Below are positions 26,996 to 32,914 of a DNA stretch of 47,148 bases, piece after piece. The notes beneath the pieces were generated by a model. It worked only from the letters and a program-made list of their open reading frames with translations. It was not told where the DNA came from and did not search any database. The stretch comes from Desulfobacteraceae bacterium (GTDB lineage: Bacteria > Desulfobacterota > Desulfobacteria > Desulfobacterales > JAABRJ01), in the NCBI GenBank assembly GCA_022340425.1, contig JAJDNY010000101.1, positions 1 through 47,148 on the forward strand, written 5' to 3'. Each line of letters starts with the position of its first letter. The stretch's first letter is position 1. A program made the translations under genes and the position numbers.

Positions 26996-27442
26996 CTATA
27001 TTCCCAGCGCGGCAATCTGGTCGCGGGCACCCTCCCTTTTCAGATCCTTCTCCATCTTTTCGTTTTCCTCATCCCATTTTTCCCGCGACCAGATTTCAAA
27101 GTGGTCGGTCACCCCGACGAAGACGACCTCTTTTTCGATTGCGGCGTAGATTCTTTGGGGGGGCGGCAGCAGGATGCGCCCCTGGCGGTCAAAGGGGCAT
27201 TCCGAGGCCCCGCCGACAAAGGTGCGCCGGAAGCGCCGGAAAAAATCATCTTTGATGGGGGTTTCCAGGACCCGTTGTTCCAGCTTCAGCCACTCGGAGA
27301 AGGAATAGCCCAGGAGGCAGCCGTCCATGCGGGTCACCATGAAACCGTTGCTGCCGTCGGCACGGGCGATTTCACGGAACTTGGCCGGCACGCTGACGCG
27401 CCCCTTGGGATCGATGTTGTGGAAATTGATTCCCCGAAACAT
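26996..27442 (-). CDS. mraZ: MraZ, AbrB-like transcriptional regulator of the dcw cluster
   Basis: The 148-residue protein carries two copies of the MraZ/AbrB swapped-hairpin domain: NIDPKGRVSVPAKFRE at about residues 9-24 and ECPFDRQGRILLPPPQR at about 76-92. MraZ forms a ring and binds short direct repeats in front of its own operon, usually repressing it. The C-terminal tail (about residues 120-148) is highly charged. The ATG at 27442 was chosen because the family begins MFRG; an upstream in-frame ATG at 27478 lacks a ribosome site. Tandem 10-bp repeats that fit an MraZ operator lie about 90 bp upstream. Confidence 0.95.
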   Translation of the reverse strand: MFRGINFHNIDPKGRVSVPAKFREIARADGSNGFMVTRMDGCLLGYSFSEWLKLEQRVLETPIKDDFFRRFRRTFVGGASECPFDRQGRILLPPPQRIYAAIEKEVVFVGVTDHFEIWSREKWDEENEKMEKDLKREGARDQIAALGI

Positions 27443-27531
27443 GTTTTTCCGTTCGAGGGCCCGGGCGCCCAGGGCCATTACGTGGTCTTGAAACCTGTCG
27501 CCGGTCTCGCTGGGGCCGGTCGATTAAGGAT

Positions 27532-27586: not shown

Positions 27587-28147
27587 GGAAAAAGTGCCCG
27601 CTGCTTTTTATATTTTGATAGTAATTAGTATTATTTAAAAATTTTAAAAACCGATCCCGGGGTGGTGGTAAAAAGTGGGATGAAAATTAAATCGGACGGG
27701 CCAGGGAAACCTTTAGGCCACCGCCCAAAAAAGAGCGCGCGGCAGATTTTTTCCCCATTGGGTGGATTTGGTGCTATACAAAACCTTTTATTTTGCGACC
27801 GACAGATGTGCGGCAGAAAACCCTGCTGTGGGCGGGGATGCGCAAAGGCTCCGGTGCGGTCATTGGTTGGGGGCGCCAAAAATTCAGCGTCATGGGAAGT
27901 CGCACCTTCATTTTTTTATTGCGCCCCGCTACCGAATAAAATATTTAGCCTCCCACATCGCCTGGGGGCGGAGCCTTCAAGGCCAAACGGGCTCGAAAAC
28001 GGCCTTCCGATTCCGGTGGGGGGCGGCTTTTAGGGTCGGCCGCGCAATGGCGCAGACCCCTGGCGCGTCGCTGATCCCCGCAGGCGGGGGCCTCCCCGAA
28101 CGGCCGCTGTGGCATGAACCCGACCAAGGTAGAGGAGTTTATGATAA
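27587..28147. other. Intergenic region between divergent mraZ and AdoMet decarboxylase genes
   Basis: I see no supportable gene in this stretch, although several open frames exist on both strands; none resembles a protein family. The segment at about 27600-27660 is strikingly AT-rich for this genome. At 27666-27680 the plus strand has TGGTA and TGGGA in a 10-bp period (TGGTAAAAAGTGGGA), which looks like a second MraZ-box pair in the opposite orientation. The segment should also carry the promoter of the decarboxylase gene; TATACA at 27775-27780 is a possible -10, but no good -35 is present. A short GC hairpin (CCCCG-CAGG-CGGGG) lies at 28076-28089. AGAGGAG at 28131-28137 is the ribosome site for the TTG start at 28148. 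Confidence 0.4.
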
Positions 28148-29089
28148 TTGACAGCAGCCATAGAACATTTCGAGGGACCTGAAAAAAAGCTGGAAATCAT
28201 TTTGAATTCCCCTTGTCCGAACCTTCGTGCCAACCCGGACGGCCGCTGGGAACGGGTCGTCAACGCCAGTCGCAGCTACATCATCAGCAGCATTTCCACC
28301 GAAGGTCTGGACGCCTACCTGCTCTCCGAATCCAGCTTGTTTGTCTGGGAGGACCGGGTTTTGATGATCACCTGCGGCAAAACCACCCTGGTGAACGCCG
28401 TTCCGGAAATACTGCGCCTGACCGGCAGGGGCAATGTGGCGCGGGTATTTTACGAACGCAAGAACATGCTCTACCCGGATCAGCAGTCCACCCGGTTCGA
28501 GGATGACGTCGCCCGCATGGCGGCCTTTTTCAGCGGCAGGGTGCACCTTCTCGGGTCGGTATCCGAAGATCACGTTCATCTTTATTCCGCCGGTGCCGGC
28601 GCCCCCAAGGCGTCACGGCAGGCGACGCTCCAGGTGCTGATGCATGACCTGGCCCCCGCGGTGCAGTCCCTTTTCTCCGTCCGCCGGGCCGGGTCCGCCG
28701 CGCGGGCGGAAGCCCTCTGCGGGTTGGATCGCCTCTATCCCGACATGGCCCGCGACAGCCATCTCTTTTCGCCCCACGGCTATTCCGTCAACGCGGTCGC
28801 CGGCACGAGCTATCACACAGTGCACGTCACCCCCCAGCCCCAGAATTCATACGCCAGCTTCGAAACCAACCGCTACGAGCCGGACTACAGCGGAACGATT
28901 CGCCAGGTGGTGTCGATCTTCAAGCCCCGCCGCCTGATGGTGCTCTTGACCACCGCCAGCAAAACCCCCGGCCCCCAGCCCCTGCCGTTCGCAAACCTCA
29001 CCCTGCCGGGCTATCGGCTGACCCGCAGCGGCCGTCACGATTTCGATTGCGGTGCGACGGTCAGCATCAGCAACCACGCCTGCGCCTGA
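28148..29089 (+). CDS. S-adenosylmethionine decarboxylase proenzyme, eukaryotic (AMD1-like) type
   Basis: This enzyme makes decarboxylated AdoMet, the aminopropyl donor for spermidine. The 313-residue protein aligns along its whole length with eukaryotic AdoMetDC rather than the short bacterial SpeD. It has HFEGPEKKLEI at residues 7-17 (human Glu8 and Glu11 correspond to Glu9 and Glu12) and the self-cleavage site YLLSESSLFV with Ser62 as the future pyruvoyl. Also present are TCGKTT (Cys76, human Cys82), FYERKNMLYP, FSPHGYSVN (Phe207, Ser213; human Phe223, Ser229) and TVHVTPQ (His226, human His243). The human substrate-binding Glu247 is Gln230 here. Human putrescine-site residues Lys80, Asp174 and Glu178 align with Ile74, Gln158 and Gln162, suggesting putrescine-independent activity. 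The start is TTG: an in-frame stop lies at 28145, an ATG at 28141 is out of frame, and GAGGAG is 10 nt upstream. speE follows. Confidence 0.92.
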   Translation: MTAAIEHFEGPEKKLEIILNSPCPNLRANPDGRWERVVNASRSYIISSISTEGLDAYLLSESSLFVWEDRVLMITCGKTTLVNAVPEILRLTGRGNVARVFYERKNMLYPDQQSTRFEDDVARMAAFFSGRVHLLGSVSEDHVHLYSAGAGAPKASRQATLQVLMHDLAPAVQSLFSVRRAGSAARAEALCGLDRLYPDMARDSHLFSPHGYSVNAVAGTSYHTVHVTPQPQNSYASFETNRYEPDYSGTIRQVVSIFKPRRLMVLLTTASKTPGPQPLPFANLTLPGYRLTRSGRHDFDCGATVSISNHACA

Positions 29090-29222: not shown

Positions 29223-30119
29223 ATGACCGACCAGCGCCATTTGAATCTCTGGGTCCGCGAGGAGCACAAAGGGATCCTGGAGACCCACTACCGGGTCGAA
29301 AAAACCCTTTTTTCGGAAAAAAGCCCCTTTCAGCAGATCGATGTGGTTGAAACCGCCGGACTGGGCAGAATGCTGCTCAACGACGGCATCGTGATGCTTT
29401 CCGAGCGCGACGAATTCGTCTATCATGAAATGATCGCGCACGTGCCGCTTTTCGTGCACCCCAACCCCCGGCGGGTGTTGGTGATCGGGGGCGGCGACGG
29501 CGGCAGTGTGCGCGAAATCCTGAAACACAGCACAATCCAGCGGGTGGTGATGGTGGAGATCGACGAAGCCGTGGTGCGGGCTTGCCGCACCCACCTGCCG
29601 TCAGTCAGCTGCGCCCTGGAGGATCCGCGGCTGGAGCTGCGCATCGCCGACGGGGTCGAATACGTGGCGCAGTGCCGTGAAAACTTCGATCTGGTGATCG
29701 TGGACTCCACCGACCCGATCGGACCCGCCAGGCCCCTGTTCAACCGCGAGTTTTACGAAAAAGCCGCCGCCCTGCTGGGTCCCGACGGCATCCTGGTCTC
29801 CCAGGCCGAAAGCCCCTTCTACGATCCCGAACTCCAGGAACCGATGCTTCGCAACCAGCGGCCCTTCTTTGCGCGGCTGCACCTCTACCTCTTCAGCACC
29901 CTGACCTACCCGGGCGGCCTCTGGAGTTTCGGGTTCGCCTCCAAGGGACCCTGTCCGCTGGCCGATTTCAACCCCCGGCGGGTGGCCGCCGCCGGTCTCA
30001 AGACCCGCTATTACAACCCCGGCGTCCACCGGGCGGCTTTCATGCTGCCCACCTTCGTGGGCGACAGCCTGGCCGGCCTGCTGGACCCCCTGGGGTGGCC
30101 TGAACCTGCGTCCCGTTGA
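29223..30119 (+). CDS. speE: SpeE, polyamine aminopropyltransferase (spermidine synthase)
   Basis: SpeE transfers the aminopropyl group of decarboxylated AdoMet to putrescine. The 298-residue protein has the N-terminal beta-domain (LETHYRVEKTLFSEKSPFQ), LNDGIVMLSERDEFVYHEMIAH, the nucleotide loop VLVIGGGDGGSVREILKH near residues 82-99, MVEIDEAVV, the catalytic-aspartate motif VIVDSTDPIGPA near 157-168, and SQAESPFYDP. These are all standard. It lies downstream of the AdoMet decarboxylase, so the window encodes both dedicated steps from AdoMet to spermidine; no ornithine or arginine decarboxylase is present. The HD-domain gene begins 10 bp after it. Confidence 0.95.
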   Translation: MTDQRHLNLWVREEHKGILETHYRVEKTLFSEKSPFQQIDVVETAGLGRMLLNDGIVMLSERDEFVYHEMIAHVPLFVHPNPRRVLVIGGGDGGSVREILKHSTIQRVVMVEIDEAVVRACRTHLPSVSCALEDPRLELRIADGVEYVAQCRENFDLVIVDSTDPIGPARPLFNREFYEKAAALLGPDGILVSQAESPFYDPELQEPMLRNQRPFFARLHLYLFSTLTYPGGLWSFGFASKGPCPLADFNPRRVAAAGLKTRYYNPGVHRAAFMLPTFVGDSLAGLLDPLGWPEPASR

Positions 30120-30129
30120 GGAGGTTGCC

Positions 30130-30894
30130 GTGGCCCCCACCGCCTCCGAGCATCGAAACCCTCCGGCCTGCGACCGGGAAGACGTCCCTGCTGTGGCCGG
30201 AGATCCGGGCGCGCAGGGACCCGAGGGGGGTTGCGAAGCCTGCCGGGAGCCGGCCGATGAACTGAGCGCAGTGGTGCGGCGGTTTGCCGAGGGGCATTTG
30301 CGGGGCACCCGCGGCAGCCACGCCTGGGACCACACCCTGCGGGTCTGCCGGCTGGGCGCGCGGATTGCGCGCCTGGAGGGCGCTGACCTGCTGGTGGTGA
30401 CGGCCGCCGCCTATCTGCACGACATCGGCCGGGGGCGCCAGGACGCCTCCTGCGGCAGGCTCTGCCACGCCCTTTTGGGCGCGGAGCTGGCGGCGCCCCT
30501 TGTGGCGCGTCTGCCGCTGAGCGCCGTGCGGCGGACGAATATCCTGCACAGCATCCGCGCGCACCGTTTCAGGGGCGATTGCCGGCCCCGAACCCTGGAG
30601 GCACGGGTGCTTTTCGACGCCGACAAGCTGGATGCCATCGGCGCGGTGGGAATTGCGCGCGCCTACCTGTTTGCCGGTGAAATCGGCGCCCGGCTGCACA
30701 ACGGGGCGGCCGATATCGCCCGGACGCGCGCCTACTCGCGCGAGGATACCGGCTACCGGGAGTACCGGCTGAAGCTCTGCCGGATTCGGGAGCGGATGCT
30801 GACCGCCGCCGGTCGGCAGCTGGCCGAGGAGCGCCACCGTTTCATGGAAGCCTTTTTCGACCGTTTTTTGCTGGAATACGAAGGAAGGGGGTAG
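30130..30894 (+). CDS. HD-domain protein, predicted phosphohydrolase of unknown substrate
   Basis: A 254-residue protein. The first 45 residues are low-complexity and rich in Pro, Gly and Cys. An HD domain follows: SHAWDHTLRVCRL (His68), AAAYLHDIGRG (His97-Asp98), HSIRAHRFRGD (His140, His145), and LFDADKLDAIGAVGIARA (Asp163, Asp165, Asp168). These cover the metal ligands of active HD hydrolases of the YpgQ/YedJ-like group, so it is probably catalytic on a phosphorylated small molecule; the substrate cannot be told. The start is GTG at 30130 with GGAGG just upstream, 10 bp after speE. It is tightly packed between speE and purH, suggesting a link to polyamine or nucleotide metabolism, which is inference. 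Confidence 0.82.
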   Translation: MAPTASEHRNPPACDREDVPAVAGDPGAQGPEGGCEACREPADELSAVVRRFAEGHLRGTRGSHAWDHTLRVCRLGARIARLEGADLLVVTAAAYLHDIGRGRQDASCGRLCHALLGAELAAPLVARLPLSAVRRTNILHSIRAHRFRGDCRPRTLEARVLFDADKLDAIGAVGIARAYLFAGEIGARLHNGAADIARTRAYSREDTGYREYRLKLCRIRERMLTAAGRQLAEERHRFMEAFFDRFLLEYEGRG

Positions 30895-30899
30895 CGCAG

Positions 30900-31580
30900 A
30901 TGGGTGTCAACATAGTTGAGCGGATCGACGATCTGGTGGCCGTGCGCCATGTGCTGATCAGTGTTTCGGACAAAAGCGGCCTTGAGCGCTTCGTGCCGGG
31001 TTTGTTGGAGATCAATCCCGAGATCCGGATTTTTTCGACCGGTGGCACGTTCCAGCGTCTGGCCGAAATCCTGGGGGGACGCGCCGAAAAATGCCTCACC
31101 CAGGTTTCCGCCTACACCGGCCAGCCCGAAACCCAGGGGGGGCTGGTAAAAACCCTGGACTTCAAAATTTACCTCGGGCTGCTCACCGAAACCTACAACG
31201 ATGCCCACCAGCAGGACCTGGCGCGCACCGCCGCGGTGCCCATCGACATGGTGGTCGTCAACCTCTATCCTTTTCAACAGACCATTGCGCGGCCGGGGGT
31301 CAGCGTGGAAGAGGCCCGCGCCAACATCGATATCGGCGGGCCCTGCATGATCCGGGCGGCGGCCAAAAACTACCTGCGGGTCGCCTCGGTGGTGGACCCA
31401 GGCGACTACCCCGGGCTGCTCGTCCGTCTGGAGGGCTATGACGGGAGGCTGCCCCTGGCCCTGCGCTTCGAACTGTCCCAGAAGGCGTTCGCCCATACCG
31501 CCGGCTATGACCGCGCCATTGCCGATTTCCTCAAGAGCCGCTCACCCGAAGCGGTGGAAGGCTGCTACAGCGGGTTTTAA
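30900..31580 (+). CDS. purH: IMP cyclohydrolase, stand-alone N-terminal half of PurH
   Basis: The 226-residue protein corresponds to the MGS-like IMP cyclohydrolase domain of PurH, which closes FAICAR to IMP. It has HVLISVSDKSGLERF, FSTGGTFQRL, MVVVNLYPFQQTI (the family Tyr), and IDIGGPCMIRAAAKNY, with the Asp and Lys that act in the human enzyme. The usual KTLHPKIHGG motif is KTLDFKIYLG here, a notable change that keeps the Lys but loses both histidines. The transformylase domain is not fused: the frame stops at 31580 and the second half is a separate gene 83 bp downstream. The start is 5 bp after the HD gene. Confidence 0.9.
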   Translation: MGVNIVERIDDLVAVRHVLISVSDKSGLERFVPGLLEINPEIRIFSTGGTFQRLAEILGGRAEKCLTQVSAYTGQPETQGGLVKTLDFKIYLGLLTETYNDAHQQDLARTAAVPIDMVVVNLYPFQQTIARPGVSVEEARANIDIGGPCMIRAAAKNYLRVASVVDPGDYPGLLVRLEGYDGRLPLALRFELSQKAFAHTAGYDRAIADFLKSRSPEAVEGCYSGF

Positions 31581-31663: not shown

Positions 31664-32914
31664 ATGGCTGAGGACCTCAAACAGATGTACCGCACCATCA
31701 TGGATGATAATTTCCCACCGCGCATGGAGATCAGCTTCGTCGCGGACAACGGGCGCCAGACCCTCTTCTACGAGAAGGTGTCGTGGGTCATCGAGGGGGT
31801 CCGCAAGGGCCTGCGCTACGGCGAAAACCCCGGCCAGGAGGCCGCCCTCTACAAACTGGTCAACGGCAACCTGGTGCTCGGCGAAACCCGCACGCTGCAG
31901 CCCGGACAGCATCTGGCCTCGGACATCCGTCTGCTGCAGTCGGGCAAGCACCCGGGCAAGACCAACCTGACCGATGCCGACAATGCCCTCAACATCCTGC
32001 GCTACCTGCACCAGGCGCCCACCGCGGTCATTGTCAAACACAACAACCCCTGCGGCGTGGCCCAGGCCGAGAGCTTGGAGAACGCCTATCTGCGGGCCTA
32101 CATGGCCGACCGCGTGGCTGCCTTCGGCGGCTGCATCGCGGTCAACCGCAGCCTGGACCGGGCCACCGCCGAGGCCATCAGCAACCAGTACGCCGAGGTG
32201 GTGGTGGCCCCCGATTTCGAGGAGGGCGCCCTGGAGATTCTCGCCCGGCGCAAGAACCTGCGGGTGATCCAGATCGGCAACATTCAGCGCCTGCAGACCT
32301 TCGTCGGCCAGCGCTGCGTGGAGTTCAAGAGCCTGATCGACGGCGGCCTCATCGCCCAGTGGTCGTTCGTCTCCCAGGTGCGCACCCGGGCGGACCTCAA
32401 ACCGGCGGTTTGCGACCACCAGGGGCGGACCTTTCGCATTCAACGGGAGCCCACCGATAAGGAATATGACGACATGCTTTTCGGCTGGCTGGTGGAAACC
32501 GGGGTGTCCTCCAACTCGGTGATCTACGTCAAGGATCGCGTGACGGTGGGGATCGGCACCGGCGAGCAGGACCGGGTGGGGGTGGCCGAGATCGCCCGCG
32601 ACAAGGCCTATCGCAAACTCTCCGACCGCTACTGTTTCGAGCAGCAGGGGGTCGCCTACAACAGCCTGCGGGACGCTGACATCCGACAGGCCATCGATGC
32701 CCGGGTTGCCGCCGAGAAAGGCGGCCTGGTGGGCGCGGCCATGATCAGCGATGCCTTTTTCCCCTTCCGCGACGGGGTCGACGTGGGGCTGCGCGAAGGG
32801 GTGCGCGCGGTCATCCAGCCGGGCGGGTCCGCCAACGATCACCAGGCCATCGAGGCCTGCAACGAGGTCGGGGCCACCATGGTCTTCACCGGCCAGCGCA
32901 GTTTCAAACACTGA
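31664..32914 (+). CDS. purH: AICAR transformylase, stand-alone C-terminal half of PurH
   Basis: The 416-residue protein formylates AICAR with 10-formyl-THF. It carries the PurH C-domain motifs [13 protein letters not shown], the catalytic Lys-His in [25 protein letters not shown], and the C-terminal [21 protein letters not shown] followed by [18 protein letters not shown] and [11 protein letters not shown], all well conserved. About 50 residues precede the RYGENP motif ([15 protein letters not shown] and following) and are absent from the fused enzyme, so this is a true independent gene with its own start and an AAAGGAGG ribosome site, not a frameshifted fragment. Supply of 10-formyl-THF connects it to fhs at 43119. 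Confidence 0.93.

Follow-up and report, generated by a model that had tools for sequence, protein, structure and literature searches.

S-adenosylmethionine (AdoMet) decarboxylase provides the donor of the aminopropyl group in spermidine synthesis, and its eukaryotic class is under study as a drug target in trypanosomes. Human AMD1 and the other eukaryotic class 2 enzymes (PF01536; PDB 1jl0, 1msv) consist of two half-sandwiches fused in one chain. Class 1b SpeD and the SpeD-SpeDC fusions (PF02675) do the same job but are built from single or doubled PF02675 domains; one half of the fold is distantly homologous to class 2, while similarity at the sequence level is faint at most. Enzymes of class 2 also occur in bacteria, where the 2019 study by Li and coworkers (Biochem J 476:2579) reportedly found them to be phylogenetically limited. 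According to Li et al. 2023 (PMC10407285), who cite Li 2019, bacteria obtained their class 2 genes from a eukaryote. The same authors propose SpeD-SpeDC fusions as the origin of class 2, and describe fusion genes that adjoin speE. Viruses lack class 2 according to PMC9992855. For the eukaryotic enzymes, Volkov et al. (PMC5201418) name D174 and E15 as putrescine-site residues, and describe P31 and H172 as retained in protists and fungi and P31 as lost in plants.

Here we analyze a class 2 gene within a stretch of 47,148 nt from a Desulfobacteraceae bacterium of the order Desulfobacterales (the window). The features of the locus are listed in Table 1. Codes such as G563, L034 and f5 are our own handles for genomes, loci and families.

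A class 2 AdoMet decarboxylase gene with a putative ribosome-binding site

PF01536 matched residues 6-300 of the protein with 233.4 bits (E 5e-69, cut-off 22.2), and no match to PF02675 was reported by the Pfam profile search at E<=0.01. The equivalog model TIGR00535 (SAM_DCase) scored 186.1 bits and did not reach its curated cut-off of 233.15, which makes the protein a diverged class 2 enzyme outside that equivalog. The nearest PDB proteins by sequence were the human enzyme, followed by those of Trypanosoma brucei and potato. An earlier note on this DNA had assigned the protein to the AMD1 class on the basis of sequence motifs; all of these motifs were found, and both the profile scores and the fold described below uphold the assignment. 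On sequence and model evidence the ORF is confirmed as a full-length class 2 (eukaryotic AMD1-type) AdoMet decarboxylase. This observation lies far beyond chance level, and the prediction of AdoMet decarboxylase function is strong.

The ORF starts with TTG, and the putative ribosome-binding sequence AGAGGAG lies 10 nt 5′ of this codon. An ATG at position 28141 is in a different frame and follows AGAGGAG by just 3 nt. TTG was also selected by our script as start codon at the equivalent place in the class 2 loci L034, L042, L043, L052, L060, L064, and L066.

Table 1. Features of the class 2 locus (positions refer to the window).
Feature	Position	Strand	Basis
Class 2 S-adenosylmethionine decarboxylase proenzyme, 313 aa	28148..29089	+	PF01536, PDB human AdoMetDC, AlphaFold model
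Predicted beta chain, residues 1-61, ends at Glu61, ~6.8 kDa	28148..28330	+	Alignment to human E67/S68, mass
Predicted alpha chain, residues 62-313, ~27.7 kDa	28331..29086	+	Alignment; Ser62 is the predicted pyruvoyl residue
Putative ribosome-binding region, AGAGGAG at 28131-28137	28131..28147	+	Sequence; role judged by eye
speE, spermidine synthase (polyamine aminopropyltransferase)	29223..30119	+	NF002010, TIGR00417 above cut-off
HD-domain phosphohydrolase-like protein	30130..30894	+	PF01966
Separate gene for the N-terminal part of purH (IMP cyclohydrolase side)	30900..31580	+	TIGR00355 residues 1-193
Separate gene for the C-terminal part of purH (AICAR transformylase side)	31664..32914	+	PRK00881 residues 212-510
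mraZ, divergent upstream neighbour	26996..27478	-	PF02381

Predicted fold, processing site, and active-site residues

The structure of the protein was modelled by AlphaFold2 from an alignment of 43 sequences (the window protein and 42 of the 49 locus copies). The resulting model (pLDDT 88.9, pTM 0.89) is a two-domain alpha-beta-beta-alpha sandwich in a single chain. It superimposed on human AdoMetDC 1jl0 with a Z score of 40 and an rmsd of 1.8 over 298 residues (model residues 6-313). The match to class 1b SpeD of T. maritima was confined to residues 154-274 (Z 9.8).

Residues were compared in 49 bacterial rows, comprising the window protein and 48 other loci; the 59-residue fragment of G414, which lies at a contig end, was omitted from the residue counts and the trees. 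For P31, H172, N132, T104, and C269, as well as for the putrescine residues in common, the roles are those given in PMC5201418; the other human residues are presumed here to have the roles commonly assigned to them. The equivalents of human E8, E11, E67, S68, C82, F223, S229, and H243 were invariant in all 49 rows. In the window protein the alignment places Glu61 and Ser62, the pair named in the earlier note, at the human processing site E67/S68, and Cys76, Ser213, and His226 at C82, S229, and H243. The window protein thus has the processing site and the catalytic residues of human AMD1, but shares just ~30% identity with it, has its partner gene in tandem, and differs at four further positions, where Ile replaces K80 and Gln replaces D174, E178, and E247.

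Three of these positions belong to the charged site of the putrescine-stimulated (human-type) enzyme, which as a whole set we take to be D174, E178, K80, E256, and E15. This site is incomplete in the window protein, where the equivalents are Q158, Q162, I74, E239, and E16, so that the last two positions are retained; E247 corresponds to Q230. The bacterial rows vary in this respect. The K80 equivalent is Ile in 48 of 49 rows, E247 is replaced by Gln in 32 of 49 (the window protein among them), and the position of E178 is occupied by Gln (25 rows), Glu (23), or Arg (1). The D174 equivalent is retained in 44 of 49 rows and was lost solely in the window, G573, G487, G604, and G534. Among the enzymes of family f5, that of G555 is an example in which all three acids (D174, E178, E247) are kept.

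The residues P31 and H172 (T. brucei numbering; P11 and H142 in the bacterial enzyme) were each present in 46 of the 49 rows, N132 in 41, T104 in 24, and C269 in 2. The T. brucei enzyme (5tvf) and the fungal enzymes have the FEGP proline (P31) and H172 in common with the window protein, and the T. brucei row also shares T104 and an Ile at the K80 position with it. In contrast to T. brucei, with 27 residues before the FEG motif, the window protein has 7 and therefore lacks the N-terminal extension; since its genome contains one PF01536 gene, no prozyme was seen. As judged from these residues, the enzymes of the bacteria resemble those of protists and fungi, minus the N-terminal extension.

A recurrent neighbourhood with spermidine synthase

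The gene following the class 2 gene scored above the cut-offs of two spermidine synthase models (NF002010, 355 bits, cut-off 260; TIGR00417, 316.6 bits, cut-off 249.6). We compared the surroundings of 48 other class 2 loci, many of which are truncated at contig ends. A speE gene is located downstream on the same strand in 33 of them, which represent 17 family codes, and this bears out the coupling to spermidine synthase that had been proposed for the window. The HD gene lies downstream in 11 of the 48 loci, the N-terminal part of purH was found in 19 and the C-terminal part in 16 (the pair of G718 is on the opposite strand), and a divergent mraZ lies upstream in 15. The order mraZ / class 2 / speE / HD / split purH recurs across several families: it is complete in G397 and G491 as well, and was seen without a visible mraZ in G467, G563, and G434, and likewise in G423 as far as the N-terminal purH part. 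In G406, mraZ, speE, and HD are visible. In further genomes of the order the two purH parts again occupy ORFs of their own, which makes a sequencing error unlikely.

Distances between class 2 proteins correlate with those between the SpeE proteins (rho 0.56, permutation p 0.0005, 33 pairs including the window), also outside of f5 (rho 0.62, permutation p 0.0005, 23 pairs), although kinship may inflate these values.

At several loci the class 2 gene is found without speE. In G487, G573, and G534 the class 2 gene is followed by HD and then purH, with no speE, and in G604 HD is the next gene and the last one on the contig. That the HD protein (L076, L077, L079, L080) stays next to class 2 without speE hints at a functional link. 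In these four genomes and in G426, the best SpdSyn match lies inside an ORF of 520-548 aa, and the N-terminal half of this ORF is hydrophobic in G487 and G604, as read by eye. In the study by Li and coworkers, some genomes reportedly pair a bacterial class 2 enzyme with a membrane-fused SpdSyn-like protein. The idea that such a membrane protein serves every locus lacking speE was refuted: six of eight such g5 genomes have an ordinary SpeE-type gene elsewhere (284-385 aa, >200 bits), G672 has a fragment, and G718 has a weak match only. We also noticed that the four other rows without the D174 equivalent (G573, G487, G604, G534) are those in which no neighbouring speE was seen and the best SpdSyn match is in the long ORF; the window lacks this Asp yet retains speE, and G426 has the long ORF yet keeps the Asp.

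Proposed function in spermidine synthesis

Conserved residues and the predicted fold suggest that the proenzyme cuts itself between Glu61 and Ser62, and that Ser62 would be converted to the pyruvoyl group heading an alpha chain of 252 residues. On the same grounds, the mature enzyme would decarboxylate AdoMet to the aminopropyl donor, which the adjacent SpeE would use to form spermidine from putrescine. Agmatine is the probable source of putrescine, by way of agmatine deiminase (AguA) and N-carbamoylputrescine amidase (AguB), whose genes lie elsewhere in the genome and both score above the equivalog cut-offs. No match to the agmatinase family was obtained in this genome, and the search for known families of arginine or ornithine decarboxylases found no member; PF01276 and PF01862 gave no match, and two PF02784 proteins match lysA best, neither above the cut-off. 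As the genome is 97.7% complete, the gap at arginine decarboxylase may reflect the assembly, uptake, or an unknown enzyme.

This gap could also be filled by the class 2 protein itself, if it were a neofunctionalised amino-acid decarboxylase acting, for example, on arginine. The presence of AguA and AguB without an arginine decarboxylase would agree with this, as would the replacements E247Q, D174Q, and E178Q, and relatives of SpeD have shifted function in a similar way, as described in PMC10407285. However, the adjacent speE requires decarboxylated AdoMet, for which the genome revealed no second decarboxylase; furthermore, the equivalents of F7 and F223 are kept. We therefore consider a change of substrate very improbable. 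Overall, it is highly likely that the class 2 proenzyme decarboxylates AdoMet for SpeE, and that its gene replaced SpeD and has long been inherited in the order. Points that count against this reading are the missed TIGR00535 cut-off, the Gln replacements, the gap at arginine or ornithine decarboxylase, the four genomes in which no neighbouring speE was seen, and the uneven distribution described below.

Distribution of class 2 and class 1 genes

In a sample of the phylum, class 2 was found in 2 of 395 genomes, both of which belong to the order of the window. A sample of this order revealed class 2 in 49 of 389 genomes, from 33 of 150 genera and 24 family codes. The window's genome has one PF01536 gene and no class 1 speD (PF02675) match at E<=0.001. 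In 14 control genomes PF01536 was not detected, and PF02675 was detected in 8. A single-sequence scan of genome contigs gave one matching locus. G406 contains a stretch that is identical across 10.9 kb to the Desulfobacterales MAG JAEINQ010000029.1, which points to this order.

Most carriers of class 2 (47 of 49) lack PF02675, the exceptions being G399 and G528. In comparison, class 1 is present in 69 of 242 genomes of the order (Fisher p 0.0003, not corrected for kinship, which may inflate it, and with 37 carriers placed among the 242 genomes by reading an incomplete list of handles). In the families f2, f6, f11, f126, f138, and f152 some genomes have class 2 and others class 1, and the distribution is therefore patchy. 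G443, a genome from the genus of the window (84% complete), is without class 2 and class 1 and gave only a weak SpdSyn match.

In the tree, f5, f6, f126, f168, and f11 each formed a supported clade. Members of f127 did not group, and f113 shared a clade (86/88) with f136 and f117 and formed none of its own; like the mixed families and G443, these cases depart from clean vertical descent. We read the pattern as old residence with chiefly vertical inheritance inside families, where loss, displacement, or transfer among families may have occurred as well. Since carriers mostly lack class 1 and the neighbourhood recurs in several families, class 2 appears to have replaced SpeD and to have been inherited for long. 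We infer that in Desulfobacterales class 2 has long stood in for SpeD and was passed on chiefly by vertical inheritance, with a patchy spread. In contrast to the reportedly limited occurrence in the study by Li and coworkers, the genes seen here are spread over one order and share a recurrent speE/HD/purH neighbourhood.

Carriage by phages or plasmids was rejected as an explanation, as no relatives were found among viral_contigs, plasmids, and phages (the viral scan used patterns from one sequence, and covers close relatives only).

Origin of the bacterial branch

The earlier note had regarded the gene as the clearest out-of-place gene of the window, and had left the choice between a transfer from another domain and a little-known bacterial branch. 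The gene is not out of place: its GC3 of 0.79 lies among those of eight neighbouring genes (0.76-0.89), and class 2 is carried by many genomes of the order. The rarity of class 2 in the phylum sample might point to recent transfer from a eukaryote or to contamination of the assembly. Against this stand the number of carriers in the order, some of them single-contig genomes (G563, G494, G442, G528), the neighbour-like GC3, and the recurrent gene order, so that we rejected this explanation and give it next to no probability. Of the two options of the earlier note, a little-known branch is thus favoured by a clade within one order with recurrent gene order. A transfer between domains does not hold in its recent form, and as an old event at the root of the branch it may still hold and is the published view (PMC10407285).

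Trees were calculated with five eukaryotes, two of them represented by provisional sequences, and long branches were flagged in both trees. A single branch sets off the bacteria (99/99 with 49 rows, 88/83 with 16 rows), and they do not nest among the eukaryotes used. At the split that remains, T. brucei sides with the bacteria (99/94 and 97/96), but its branch is very long, and in both trees the meeting of long eukaryotic branches calls for caution. AU tests rejected neither a grouping of the bacteria with opisthokonts (p 0.225) nor one with plants (p 0.068). The bacterial clade is separate in these trees, which with their five eukaryotes neither confirm nor exclude a transfer from a eukaryote. 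P31 and H172 without an extension argue against an animal or plant donor, and the pattern fits a protist-type donor or a stem position.

In the published account, a eukaryotic AMD gene was transferred once, long ago, into an ancestor of this bacterial group, was then inherited or lost, and took the place of class 1 SpeD. We consider this account fairly probable. It has the statement in PMC10407285 (citing Li 2019) on its side, as well as the limited spread in the phylum sample and the presence of P31 and H172, as in fungi and several protists, P31 being absent from animals and plants; the bacterial rows are nevertheless un-nested within the small and long-branched set of eukaryotes, and hence no donor lineage emerges. 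The opposite course, with class 2 born in bacteria and passed to eukaryotes from a relative of this group, would agree with the separate bacterial clade and with P31/H172 in the absence of an extension. ORFs with two PF02675 matches, which resemble the SpeD-SpeDC precursor proposed in PMC10407285, do occur in this order (nine were read). However, bacterial and eukaryotic class 2 proteins are equally distant from class 1 and the fusions by single-sequence HMM scores, which overlap. The lean of hhalign to bacteria (35 versus 10% probability, or 44 versus 4% with three rows each) is weak and profile-dependent, and as the HMM scores show no such difference, we draw no inference on the direction from this comparison. 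Considering also the confinement to one order in the phylum sample, a birth of class 2 in bacteria seems unlikely. A more specific version, in which the Desulfobacterales branch is the bacterial stem of class 2 and the first eukaryotes took AMD from a sulfate-reducing partner or its relative, is speculative and must likewise be rated as doubtful; under it, the syntrophy hypothesis would allow a transfer of AMD to eukaryotes.

Significance

That bacteria can have a class 2 AdoMet decarboxylase is not new; the useful addition is that the gene is settled across one order. The order-wide spread and the gene order are unreported in the accessible portions of the open-access literature that we searched, and the P31/H172 signature without an N-terminal extension in bacterial proteins also adds to what was known. 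A well-populated bacterial branch with recurrent partners provides a test bed for the residues of self-processing, and the bacterial enzymes allow the switch residues P31 and H172 to be tested without N-terminal extension or prozyme. The branch is moreover a sample for asking whether eukaryotes invented class 2 or inherited it from bacteria. Should the published direction hold, a eukaryotic gene became a settled metabolic gene of a bacterial order. If instead the Desulfobacterales branch is the stem, the bacterial enzymes would show the class at a stage that preceded both the autoinhibitory N-terminal extension and the putrescine site of the human type.
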